In this document: positions 58,208 through 64,000 of the stretch, one piece after another
Numbering within the stretch: position 1 is the first letter of the stretch
How the letters are laid out: each line of letters opens with the position of its first letter
From: Spirochaetales bacterium
Lineage (GTDB): Bacteria > Spirochaetota > Spirochaetia > Treponematales > UBA12059
Direction of reading: 5' to 3'
Assembly (NCBI GenBank): GCA_016928955.1
Contig: JAFGJV010000033.1
Span: 1 to 64,000 of the forward strand
DNA length: 64,000 nt
The notes under the pieces: model-generated
Told to the model about the DNA's origin: nothing
The model's input: the letters and a program-made list of their open reading frames with translations, nothing else
Databases searched by the model: none
Made by a program: the position numbers and the translations under genes

Positions 58208-58421
58208 GGGTAGGTGCCCTGGCTCACCAGCCTGGACACGCCGCCGATTTATACCGAATTGCGGGCGGGTTGCGCGGGCTTATGCCCGACGCAAGGAAAC
58301 CAGCTAAAAGGGAGGGCGCCCTGGCTCCTCGCGGCGTCTCGCTCATCCTCCCGACAGCATGTTCCACGCTCCCCGTTGTCCAGTCGTGCGGAACTATATC
58401 CACGCATCACGGGAGGATAGT
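58208..58421 (+). promoter_or_regulatory. structured metK leader, class unknown
   Basis: The stretch between the likely promoter and metK has no gene. It contains a hairpin TTGCG..GGGC-TTAT-GCCC..CGCAA (about 58271-58295), followed by GGAAACCAGC and a GGGCGCCC palindrome. The strings GCCCTGGCTC occur twice (near 58217 and 58318). I see no SAM-I core (GATGAAACCC, GGCAACC) and no other known SAM riboswitch, and no terminator with a T run before the ribosome-binding site. Control by SAM is expected for metK but not shown. Confidence 0.35.
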
Positions 58422-59588
58422 ATGAAAGACCAACGGTATCTGTTCACCTCGGAATCCGTCGGGGAGGGACATCCGGACAAGCTGTGCGACCAGGTATCTG
58501 ACGCGGTGTTGGACGCCTGCCTTGCCGAGGATCCGGAGAGCCACGTAGCCTGCGAAACCTTCGCCACAACGGGCATGGTCCTGGTCGGCGGCGAAATCAC
58601 CACCAATACCTACGTGGACATTCAAACGCTCGTCCGCGACGTCGTCAGGGACATCGGCTACACCAACCCGGACTACGGCCTGGATTTCGAGTCCATGGCC
58701 ATACTCAACACCATCCACTCCCAGTCGCCGGACATCAACCAGGGCGTGGTCGGCCAGGGGCTCAAGGAGTACACGGGCCAGCAAGGCGCAGGCGACCAGG
58801 GCATGATGTTCGGCTTTGCCTGCACGGAGACGCCCGAATTGATGCCGGCGCCCATCCATTACGCCCACGCCCTTTTGCTCAGGGCCACCGAGCTCCGCAA
58901 GGGCAAGGTGCTTCCCTGGCTCCGCCCCGACGCCAAAAGCCAGGTAACGCTGGAATACGAGGGGCACAAGCCGGTGCGGGCTGACGCGGTGGTCGTGTCG
59001 CACCAGCACGACCCTGACGTGCCGTATGAACGCATCAAGGAAGCGGTCATAGAGGAAATCATCCGCCCGGTGCTGGAGCCCACGGGCCTTCTGACGGCAG
59101 ACACCAAGTATTTTGTCAATCCGACCGGCCGCTTTGTCATAGGCGGCCCCATGGGCGACACGGGGCTCACCGGACGAAAAATAATCGTCGACACCTACGG
59201 TGGCATGGGCCGCCACGGCGGCGGTGCGTTCTCGGGCAAGGATCCGTCCAAGGTCGACAGGTCCGCAGCCTACATGGCGCGCTATGTTGCCAAGAACGTG
59301 GTAGCCGCGGGTCTTGCCGAACGCTGTGAGGTGGAGCTTGCTTACGCAATTGGCGTGCCATTCCCGGTGTCCATCATGGTTGACACGTTTGATACGGGCA
59401 AGGAACCGGAGCATCGCATCATAGAAGCCATCCGGAAGGTATTTGACCTGAGCCCCGCGGGCATCGTCCGCACGCTCAGACTCAAGGCTCCCATTTACCG
59501 CAAAACCGCCGCGTACGGTCACTTTGGCCGGGACGGCTTCTCGTGGGAAGCGACCGACAAGGCTAAGGAACTGATGGCCGCTATCTAA
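58422..59588 (+). CDS. metK: S-adenosylmethionine synthetase
   Basis: Makes SAM from ATP and methionine; 388 residues. GGGAGG precedes the [23 protein letters not shown], the signature [36 protein letters not shown] and [19 protein letters not shown] are all present, with the final [20 protein letters not shown]. Single-gene unit bounded by its own promoter and terminator. Confidence 0.98.
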
Positions 59589-59809: not shown

Positions 59810-61027
59810 ATGGAATCCATCAGGGATCTGTTCAGAATCGGCCACGGACCGTCCTCCAGCCACACCATGGGACCACGCTCTGCCGCCGAGCGCTTTTATG
59901 CCGACCATCCGGACGCGGCAGCATTCCGGGCCACCTTGTACGGCAGTCTGGCCGCGACCGGAAGAGGCCATTTTACCGACCGGGCGATCATGGATGCATT
60001 CGGTGTAAAACCCGTGGATATCGTGTGGAAACCGGAGGAGAGCCTTCCCTATCATCCTAATGCCTTGAAGCTTGAGGCTATTTCTCCCACAGGCATCATT
60101 CAGGCGGAAGAAACCATATACAGTGTCGGAGGCGGCAAGGTTGTTCGGGAAGGACAGTACCTCATGCAAGCCGCGGATACCTATGCGTTGTCTTCCCTGA
60201 GCGACATCCTTGCGTACGTTGACATGCATGGCCAGATGTTCTGGGAATATGTTCAGGACTGCGAGGGACCGGATATCTGGGACTTCCTCAGTGAAATATG
60301 GAAGACGATGAAGACATCTGTGGAGCGCGGCATAGAAACCGAGGGTGTCCTGCCTGGCGATCTTCGACTCCAGAGAAAAGCATCCTCCTACCATGTTCGG
60401 GCCAATGGGTTTCGAGGATCGCTGAAACGACGCTCGCTGCTGTACGCATACGCACTGGCAGTGGCGGAAGAAAACGCGGCCGGGAACGTCATCGTCACCG
60501 CGCCGACCTGCGGCTCATGCGGGGTATTGCCGGGCGTCTTGTACAACCTGGCGGCAAACTACGGCTTTGCGGACACAAAGATTCTGCGCGCCCTTGCCAC
60601 CGCCGGTCTTATCGGTACCTTGGTCAAGCACAACGCGTCCATATCCGGAGCACAGGTTGGCTGTCAGGGCGAGATTGGCACGGCGTGTTCCATGGCTGCA
60701 GCGGCTGCAGCCCAGTTGTTTGGCGGTTCTCCGGCTCAGATAGAATACGCGGCCGAGATGGGGCTTGAACATCACCTGGGACTTACCTGCGATCCTATCG
60801 GCGGTTATGTGCAGATTCCTTGCATCGAGAGGAACGCCTTTGCCGCGTCTAGAGCGTTGGACGCCAACACCTACGCGCTGCTTTCTGACGGGAGACATCG
60901 CATCAGCTTTGACTTCATTGTGGACACGATGAACAAGACCGGCAAAGATCTTCCCCGTATTTACAAAGAAACATCTCTTGGTGGCCTGGCTCTCGCATCT
61001 GGGGCTCAGCGGTATCGACCTCATTAA
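59810..61027 (+). CDS. sdaA: L-serine ammonia-lyase, iron-sulfur type, single chain
   Basis: Deaminates L-serine to pyruvate with a [4Fe-4S] cluster; 405 residues. The N-terminal beta domain (about 1-150, RIGHGPSSSHTMGPRSAAERF) is fused to the alpha domain, as in E. coli SdaA, but is shorter. PTCGSCGVLPG, VGCQGEIGTACSMAAAAAAQ and CDPIGGYVQIPCIERNAF are diagnostic. Cys285, Cys327 and Cys338 are spaced 42 and 11 apart, the spacing I recall for the cluster ligands of the Legionella enzyme. The 160-base upstream gap includes GTGAGG 12 bases before the ATG. Confidence 0.94.
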   Translation: MESIRDLFRIGHGPSSSHTMGPRSAAERFYADHPDAAAFRATLYGSLAATGRGHFTDRAIMDAFGVKPVDIVWKPEESLPYHPNALKLEAISPTGIIQAEETIYSVGGGKVVREGQYLMQAADTYALSSLSDILAYVDMHGQMFWEYVQDCEGPDIWDFLSEIWKTMKTSVERGIETEGVLPGDLRLQRKASSYHVRANGFRGSLKRRSLLYAYALAVAEENAAGNVIVTAPTCGSCGVLPGVLYNLAANYGFADTKILRALATAGLIGTLVKHNASISGAQVGCQGEIGTACSMAAAAAAQLFGGSPAQIEYAAEMGLEHHLGLTCDPIGGYVQIPCIERNAFAASRALDANTYALLSDGRHRISFDFIVDTMNKTGKDLPRIYKETSLGGLALASGAQRYRPH

Positions 61028-61328
61028 GCGCCGCCCGTTTCACGTGAAACATTCTGTCACCCGCCTTGGGACCAACGTATCTACCCATTGTTCTTTGCTG
61101 TGTTCCTATCCCGCCATCCATAGTGTTTTCCACACAATCAACGAACACTCTTCATAAGCTTGCACATGCCAGCAGGCTGTTTAAAAGCATCTGTAGTTGA
61201 ATAAGAGGCTTAAACATCTTCAGGTTTATAAGCCCACTAGATGTCTCTGGTCGAAAGGACTGGTATGCCATACACTTGGGCTGCGCGCTCGTAGTGGAAG
61301 CGCATCAGCGTAAAGGAGGAAGAAACTC
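61028..61328. other. 301-bp intergenic region with parS, between sdaA and a lipoprotein gene
   Basis: No gene supported. It holds the parS-like site at 61036-61051, one DnaA-box-like TTTTCCACA (61126-61134, one mismatch to TTATCCACA), an imperfect inverted repeat GGCTTAAAC/GTTTATAAGCC (61207-61234), and the AAGGAGG of the next gene. A single DnaA-like box is not evidence of an origin. Confidence 0.5.
61036..61051. promoter_or_regulatory. parS centromere-like site (15 of 16 bases)
   Basis: CGTTTCACGTGAAACA differs only at the first base from the broadly conserved bacterial parS sequence TGTTTCACGTGAAACA, the ParB-binding site. Confidence 0.85.
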
Positions 61329-61652
61329 ATGCATAGATCTCGTGGATTGGTGATCAGGGCTACCGCTGTTGTCTGCCTAATACTCGGCATGGCCTTGGGT
61401 GCGTGCTCCCTGTTTGAGGGAACCAGTCTTGAACGCCAGATAGAGCGGCTTCAACGGGACGCGGCGGATATCGTAAAGAAATTAAAGACAGAAGACGATC
61501 CAAGGGCAAAAGCTCGGCTGGAGAAAGACCTGAAAAAAATCCAGGAAAACCTGTCCGAGGCCATGGAAAAGGCAGCTAAAGAACTCAAAAAGGTGGATTT
61601 TGAAGGGATGTTCGAAGACATAGGAGAAGGTATCAAGTCACTCGGTGACTGA
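61329..61652 (+). CDS. small coiled-coil lipoprotein, function unknown
   Basis: Protein of 107 residues with AAGGAGG upstream. The signal peptide ends MALGA-Cys26. The mature 82 residues are almost wholly charged and helical (LERQIERLQRDAADIVKKLK, LEKDLKKIQENLSEAMEKAA), predicted to form a coiled coil, ending in GEGIKSLGD. In layout it resembles Lpp-like or small murein-associated lipoproteins, but no family is recognised. It lies between the two parS sites and converges on gyrA. Confidence 0.82.
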   Translation: MHRSRGLVIRATAVVCLILGMALGACSLFEGTSLERQIERLQRDAADIVKKLKTEDDPRAKARLEKDLKKIQENLSEAMEKAAKELKKVDFEGMFEDIGEGIKSLGD

Positions 61653-61720
61653 GGCTTCCGGGGAACCGGTTTCCCGCATACGCTGACCACGAACCATACC
61701 GTTTGAGCTTTCTGACAAAA

Positions 61721-61762
61721 ACAAAGGGCCGGATGTTTCACGTGAAACATCCGGCCCTTTGT
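61721..61762. terminator. 42-bp perfect palindrome with parS at its centre
   Basis: The two 21-base halves are exact reverse complements (arms begin ACAAAGGGCC and end GGCCCTTTGT). It lies between the stop codons of two convergent genes, so it may act as a bidirectional terminator, although only three consecutive T follow the GC stem. The central 16 bases are a perfect parS site. Confidence 0.7.
61734..61749. promoter_or_regulatory. parS centromere site (perfect)
   Basis: TGTTTCACGTGAAACA matches the bacterial parS consensus at all 16 positions and shares its centre (61741/61742) with the larger palindrome. Confidence 0.93.
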
Positions 61763-61786
61763 ATGCGTTCACTCGTTAATTGTGCG

Positions 61787-64000
61787 TTACTCTTCGGTAT
61801 CGCTCGGAGCTGCGCTGGTTTGTTCCTCGGTACCTGCCTCCGTCCCAGTAGCGTCGCGCAAATTCGGCTCAGCCTCTAGGCTTGCTCCCGCCGGACTGTC
61901 GCCCTCTTCCTCCCGGGCTATACGATCCATGCCAACCACAAAATCGGGCGCGTCTATGTTGACTATCCGGACTCCCTTGGCCGTTTTACCGCACAGCCGG
62001 ACACCTTCGGCCTTGATCTTCAGGGTTTTGCCCAGGCTGGTCATGATCACCACATCGTCGCTTTCACGTATGGATATGGCGCATACCAGGTCGCCGTTCT
62101 CTGGATCGTAGATGCGCTGTCCGCCGGTACCACGCCCGTGTTCGGAGAAGTTGTCGTAGTCAGTGCGCTTGCCATAGCCCGTTTCGCTGATCAACAGCAT
62201 CTGTTCGTTCTCGGCTACTCGGAGCATGGCGCACAGTTCGTCCTCGGCTACCTTCAGGCTGATACCCCTGACGCCTCGGCTTCCCCTGCCCATAACCCGT
62301 ACGGCTTCTTCTTTGATGCGAAGGGCCTGGCCGCGCTTGGTGATCAAGACCACCTCGTTCGAACCGCTGGTCTTGCACGCCGATACCAGCCGGTCGTTTT
62401 CATCCAGATGGATGGCTATGATGCCCCTGGCCTTGGCGTTGACAAATTCCTTGGTCGCCACCTTTTTCACAACACCGCGCAAGGTACCAAGCATCAGGAA
62501 GACGTCGTCGGTAAAGCCCTTGATGTCAACGATGGTGGTGATTTCCTCGTCCGGGCCAATGGCCAGAAGGCTCTTGATATGGGCACCGCGCGCGGCCTTG
62601 CTGGCCTCCGGGATTTCATGCACCTTTTGCCAGTACGCCTTGCCTGCGCTGGTGATGAACATCAGGTAGTCATGGGTATTGGCGATGAATATCTGCTCTA
62701 TGAAATCATCCTCGAGCAAGGCCGCCGAATTGGATCCCTTGCCTCCCCTGCCCTGGTTCTTGTAGGCGCTGGTGGCAACGCGTTTGATGAAGCCCTTGTT
62801 CGATATGAGGATGACCATTTCCTCGCGCTTGATCAAATCCTCTATATTGATAGCCTCAACCTCGTCATGGACGATTTCCGTCCGCCTGGGATCGCCGTAT
62901 TTATCGGCGATGACCCTGGTCTCTTCCTTTATCAATGCCAGGATCTTGGGCGGGTTGGCCAGCAGATCCTTGTAGTAGGCGATCTTGGCGCGGATTTCTT
63001 CCAACTCTGCGCGAAGCTTCTCTATTTCAAGGCTGGTAAGGCGACCCAGACGCATGTCGACGATGGCCTGAGCCTGTATCTCGCTCAGGGCAAAACGCTC
63101 CATTAGGGCTATCTTGGCGGCGTCCACGTTGGCCGACGCCTTGATAATGCGCACTACCTCGTCGATATTCTCGATGGCTATGACCAAGCCTTCCAAGATG
63201 TGGGCGCGTTCCTCCGCCTTGCGAAGCTCGAAGCGCGTCCTCCTTGTGACCACATCCACCCGGTGGTCGACAAAGCACTTGATCAGGTCTTTCAGGGACA
63301 GGAGCTTGGGCCGGCCCCCTACCAGGGCCAGGTTGATGACGCCGAAGGTAGACTGGAGCGGCGTGTGCGCGAACAGGCGGTTGAGGACCAGCTTGGCCAC
63401 GGCGCCGCGCTTCAGTTCGATCACCACGCGCATGCCCTCGCGGTCTGACTCGTCGCGTACGTCCGAGGCCCCGTCCACCACCTTGTCGCGCATCAGCTCG
63501 GCTATCTTGACGATCAGGTTGGCCTTGTTGACGGTATAGGGAATCTCCGTAAAGACGATCTGTTCCCTGCCGCCTTTCAGCGTCTCTATGCTGAACTTGC
63601 CGCGGACGGTCAGCTTGCCTTTTCCGTTTATATACGCTTCCCGTATGCCCCGTTTGCCAAAAATAATGCCGCCGGTCGGGAAATCCGGACCGATCACATA
63701 CTTCATCAGTCCGTCTATGCTGATGTCCGGGTTGTCAATGTAGGCCGCAATGGCATCCGTCACCTCGCCAAGATTATGGGGAGCCATGTTGGTGGCCATG
63801 CCCACGGCGATGCCCGACGACCCATTGACCAGGAGATTCGGGAAGGACGCAGGCAGCACGACGGGTTCCCGCAGGCTCTCGTCGTAGTTGGGCACAAAGT
63901 CCACGGTTTCCTTGTCCAAGTCCGCGAGCATTTCGTCGCCCAGCTTGGACAGCTTGGCTTCCGTATAGCGGCTGGCGGCTGGCGGGTCACCATCCACCGA
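61787..64000 (-). CDS. gyrA: DNA gyrase subunit A (partial, N-terminus beyond right edge)
   Basis: Type II topoisomerase subunit; about 737 codons are visible and the frame is open at base 64000. The first visible residues [17 protein letters not shown] are the active-site region with catalytic Tyr in SRYTE, so roughly the first 110 residues are missing. [15 protein letters not shown] and [17 protein letters not shown] follow. The C-terminal beta-pinwheel starts with the GyrA box QGRGGKG, which separates gyrase from ParC. The tail after about 690 visible codons is acidic and disordered ([12 protein letters not shown] ... PSDTEE). Confidence 0.96.

Follow-up and report, generated by a model that had tools for sequence, protein, structure and literature searches.

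Two parS sites near the likely origin of a spirochaete chromosome, one of them forming the core of a predicted gyrA terminator

ParABS is a well known partition system, and in chromosomal versions the parA and parB genes usually lie beside parS and oriC, although this is not obligatory. In Bacillus subtilis, Caulobacter and Pseudomonas it comprises a 16-bp parS consensus present at more than one site near oriC, a canonical ParA, a ParB with an N domain, an HTH and a C-terminal dimerisation domain, and SMC. Among spirochaetes, the parAZBS system of Borrelia burgdorferi has an oriC-proximal parS at which ParB loads and recruits SMC; parA and parB are located near parS in head-to-head orientation, and ParA is controlled by ParZ, whose gene has been reported in Borreliaceae only (PMC9712426). 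The locus described here shares the parS consensus, the origin-proximal sites, the canonical ParA and ParB and SMC with the first group, and with Borrelia it shares a spirochaete host and an oriC-proximal parS (PMC9712426). In contrast to the first group, parAB is found away from parS and the origin, and there are two parS sites only, one of them built into a predicted intrinsic terminator; unlike the head-to-head genes near parS in Borrelia, parAB here is an ordinary operon elsewhere (PMC9712426). The locus is, in all probability, an ordinary chromosomal centromere, and what is uncommon, a modest new twist, is a parS doubling as predicted gyrA terminator together with the location of parAB elsewhere.

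The window, that is the whole stretch of DNA analysed, consists of bases 1-64000 of contig C46 (74,412 bp). According to the first-pass annotation, matches of 15/16 and 16/16 to the parS consensus lie 698 bp apart next to gyrA; both were confirmed (Table 1), with 698 bp from the start of parS1 to the start of parS2, 8 bp from the sdaA stop to parS1 and 39 bp from the gyrA stop codon to the start of the parS2 core. They were the only matches in the window with up to three mismatches, and shuffled windows held 0.06 such matches on average, none of 100 shuffles reaching two, which agrees with the earlier statement that a random perfect match is improbable in one window. When parS was mapped in the whole draft genome (2,866,226 bases in 59 contigs, 99.5% complete), the matches were not dispersed: the same two sites, both 5-6 kb from dnaA, were the sole ones with up to two mismatches to the 16-mer. 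The 14-mer core, also with up to two mismatches, gave one extra match genome-wide, non-palindromic and unrelated, and its reversed control pattern gave 10. parS1 and parS2 are almost certainly the sole centromere-like ParB docking sites in this genome.

Table 1. Features of the parS locus and of the distant parAB operon. Plain coordinates are window positions; gene names come from family searches where these were run and otherwise from reading the proteins.
Feature	Coordinates	Strand	Remarks
metK, S-adenosylmethionine synthase	58359-59588	+	Named by reading the protein only; neighbour conserved in relatives
sdaA, L-serine ammonia-lyase	59810-61027	+	TIGR00720 above cut-off
parS1	61036-61051 (core 61037-61050)	.	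CGTTTCACGTGAAACA; 15/16, perfect 14-bp core
Lipoprotein-like ORF, 107 aa	61329-61652	+	Lipobox LGAC; between parS1 and parS2
Perfect 42-bp palindrome, predicted gyrA intrinsic terminator	61721-61762	-	ACAAAGGGCCGGATGTTTCACGTGAAACATCCGGCCCTTTGT, with parS2 at its centre; next on the minus strand comes TTTTGTCAGA
parS2	61734-61749	.	TGTTTCACGTGAAACA; 16/16
gyrA	61787-64000, on to contig position 64330	-	TIGR01063 above cut-off
parA, 251 aa	L087:9121-9876, contig C52		PF13614, PF01656
parB, 295 aa	L087:9869-10756, contig C52		ParB_N, HTH_ParB, ParB_C (PF02195, PF17762, PF23552); directly behind parA

The order of elements on C46 is metK+, sdaA+, parS1, lipoprotein ORF+, parS2, gyrA-, gyrB-, a 482-bp gap, dnaA+, dnaN+ and recF+, and the parS cluster lies between the convergent units gyrBA and metK/sdaA/lipoprotein. 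The gap between gyrB and dnaA, whose start is at contig position 66722, is AT-rich (45% GC) and contains two exact DnaA boxes and one with 1 mismatch, and the GC skew, computed on sampled stretches of C46, is mostly negative to ~70 kb and positive beyond, changing sign just past dnaA. Because of this gene order, the DnaA boxes and the skew switch, the window's right-hand end is taken to lie close to the origin, as had been proposed from the usual clustering of parS near oriC and the frequent closeness of gyrA to dnaA and gyrB, and parS clusters near the replication origin in this genome. On the other side of the balance, in the Treponema-like genus g11 (G023, G026, G066) parS is located 250-340 kb from dnaA. 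At the coarse sampling used there, the skew of G066, where parS is found at 251 kb and dnaA at 0.7 kb, changed sign at ~322-330 kb; that of G023, with its parS at 2.506 Mb and its dnaA at 0.4 kb, did so at ~2.53-2.57 Mb. Both switches are nearer parS than dnaA (L174, L175, L224-L263).

The lack of a parB gene would have spoken against a centromere, and the genome does encode one, with all three ParB domains, directly behind a parA gene with canonical domains, as expected of a ParABS operon; SMC is encoded as well. This ParB aligns with solved Spo0J/ParB structures and passes the cut-off of the general ParB model, and it scores 230 bits with the Noc model TIGR04285, below the cut-off of 315; no ParB paralogue above that cut-off was found. 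A second ParB-like ORF, of 148 aa on contig C1 (L088:7745-8191, minus strand), was rejected as the chromosomal ParB since it has the N domain only and is below the TIGR00180 cut-off. It adjoins a penicillin-binding-protein-like gene, and similar short ParB-like matches occur in relatives.

The first-pass annotation had also stressed that the two sites flank a lipoprotein gene. The ORF does lie between them; the emphasis did not hold, and the ORF appears incidental, as a similar one was found at the locus in three relatives only, in two of which it is not between the sites. It matched no family in Pfam or NCBIfam, and on these grounds (poor conservation at the locus, variable position with respect to parS, no family match) it was discarded as a part of the parS system. 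A minus-strand ORF at 61451-61750, antisense to the lipoprotein ORF and with its MFHVKH start within parS2, was judged spurious. ORFs starting with MFHVKH that run straight through parS (ATGTTTCACGTGAAACAT) were seen both here and at L174:5374-6681, where, in G066, this reading begins a long methyltransferase-like ORF. Additionally, an Rfam search over the window returned two tRNAs and nothing else, and the closest relatives of the window GyrA are from Spirochaetota.

The gyrA-side site differs from its partner in the DNA around it. A perfect palindrome with arms of 21 is centred on parS2 and is predicted to give a hairpin with a 19-bp stem, 10 GC pairs, a 4-nt loop and a T-tail (RNA fold of -35.8 kcal/mol, z -7.5); at parS1 a long hairpin is absent, and a hairpin there was rejected (fold z-scores +1.2 and +1.5). 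Since a palindrome centred on parS2, with a T-run behind it on the gyrA strand, closely follows the gyrA stop codon, this site is predicted to form the top of the gyrA terminator. As in bacterial intrinsic (rho-independent) terminators, a GC-containing stem and a 4-nt loop are directly followed by a T-run near a stop codon; unlike in these, the apical stem and loop are a full predicted ParB-binding site. Searches of open-access literature yielded nothing on parS inside terminators or beside gyrA.

Extended palindromes around parS are also over-represented in the order. Among 131 distinct sites, whose stems differ and whose counts are uncorrected for kinship, 17 have arms of at least 12 bp, against 2.05 expected when right flanks were swapped between sites, and eight are perfect palindromes with arms of at least 16 bp, against 0.07 expected and a maximum of 2 in 2000 swaps. 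Terminators centred on parS were found at five distinct sites, with unrelated stems: in the window, G010 (L007), Treponema parvum (L013), G022 (L123) and G109 (L170). Three of these hairpins (window, T. parvum, L170) begin roughly 20-30 nt beyond gyrA and have their T-tail on its strand; in L007 and L123 the tail is on the convergent strand. Terminators not centred on parS but within 3 nt of it accompany 11.6% of sites versus 3.3% of random nearby positions, which is only a moderate excess, due in part to both elements occupying short intergenic gaps. Long palindromes without a T-run also surround parS in L134, L173, L146 and L130 and, outside the order, in L195 and L209, so terminator selection cannot account for all of them. 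At L188:4586-4639, the same site as L134 in G068, a 54-bp perfect palindrome is centred on parS and a T-run is absent.

The position of the sites behind gyrA extends well beyond this genome. The perfect 14-bp core was found in 17 of the 23 genomes of the family, in one or two copies that lie, in those examined, just downstream of gyrA; G004, G005 and G016 carry near matches, GTTCCACGTGAAAC and GTTCCACGTGGAAC among them. In two genomes of genus g3 (L106/L107, from G004 and G005) the perfect core has been lost and these variants stand at the same spot behind gyrA. In the order, 89 of 119 genomes have the perfect core. The site is within 300 bp of the gyrA stop in 35 of 45 gyrA+parS loci, within 1.1 kb in 42 and within 2.6 kb in all 45; these loci are the stretches of the order with gyrA in reach and the counts are not genome-wide, because the other stretches end before gyrA or have it farther off. 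No parS was found in the flanks examined of 54 non-spirochaete gyrA loci (L031-L045, L047-L085). Judged from these sequences, the order as a whole has kept a parS cluster close behind gyrA.

The location of parAB differs from that in the known systems. In the source genome it is not near parS and oriC but on a separate contig, and the positions of the contig ends imply a distance to parS of no less than about 69 kb. Among complete genomes of the order, the seven in which ParB was searched for (a set without G026) have parB and parS about 86 kb (G030), 282 kb (G031), 303 kb (G023), 392 kb (G066), 791 kb (G053), 1.44 Mb (G033) and 1.45 Mb (G119) apart. In most genomes examined from the phylum's other orders and classes, with G163, G165 and G139 as exceptions, parS lies inside parB or within ~5 kb of it, and the split therefore looks specific to the Treponema-containing order. 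In G138, G147, G157 and G166, which are spirochaetes outside the order, a parS is within the parB gene or overlaps it.

We consider it highly probable that parS1 and parS2 are the chromosomal ParB-loading centromere and that the site nearer gyrA doubles as the core of the terminator of that gene. That the two sites are chance matches to a short palindrome has nothing in its favour beyond the shortness of the motif, and its probability is practically nil: the sites are unique in the genome and clustered, and their conserved position across the order refutes it. They could also be regulatory or occlusion sites of ParB/Noc type, with gyrA or the lipoprotein gene as their target, and not a centromere, since ParB bound to parS can influence adjoining promoters in some bacteria (PMC7022226). 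This is very improbable, because the genome has no parS other than these two, which adjoin the origin, the ParB is over the general ParB cut-off and under that of Noc, a scan for the sigma-70 consensus only found no promoter-like site in 60900-62000, and the lipoprotein ORF is poorly conserved.

A stronger competitor concerns the palindrome at parS2, which may have been produced when template switching corrected an imperfect palindrome that parS had seeded, and not by selection as a terminator; any termination would then be a by-product. Such a mutational origin is a live rival because of the other long palindromes without T-tails, as long perfect parS palindromes lacking T-runs occur in several spirochaetes, among them that of G068 (L134/L188). 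It seems unlikely on balance, given that the outer stems are unrelated between the window, T. parvum and L170 and that in all three the T-tail follows the stem at once on the gyrA strand, as a gyrA terminator predicts.

In the centromere-plus-terminator reading, and by analogy with the known ParABS mechanism, ParB made from the distant parAB operon would load at both parS sites as a CTP-dependent clamp and slide outward, ParA would move the ParB complex and thereby separate sister origins, and ParB would recruit SMC. Forming the 16 bp at the apex of the gyrA terminator, parS2 would bind ParB as DNA and end transcription as an RNA hairpin. A likely reason for the overlap is that parS by itself provides the core of a hairpin, which few changes would make into a terminator, and that termination at parS2 would keep RNA polymerase off the ParB-loading site.

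For a spirochaete represented by a draft genome, these results place the centromere and the likely origin, and they reveal a conserved gyrA-parS layout in the order that includes Treponema. That parAB and parS lie apart in this order indicates that tight linkage between these genes and the centromere is dispensable. More tentatively, and with somewhat less than even confidence, we propose that the order has repeatedly fused parS to terminators, chiefly that of gyrA, one palindrome serving ParB loading and termination, with transcription kept off the loading site and parAB gone from the origin; if this is true, a single element would both set the 3' end of the gyrase mRNA and protect the centromere from transcription. 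If the overlap is functional, it would tie transcription termination to ParB loading in a simple way, and would bear on how partition complexes are shielded from RNA polymerase.
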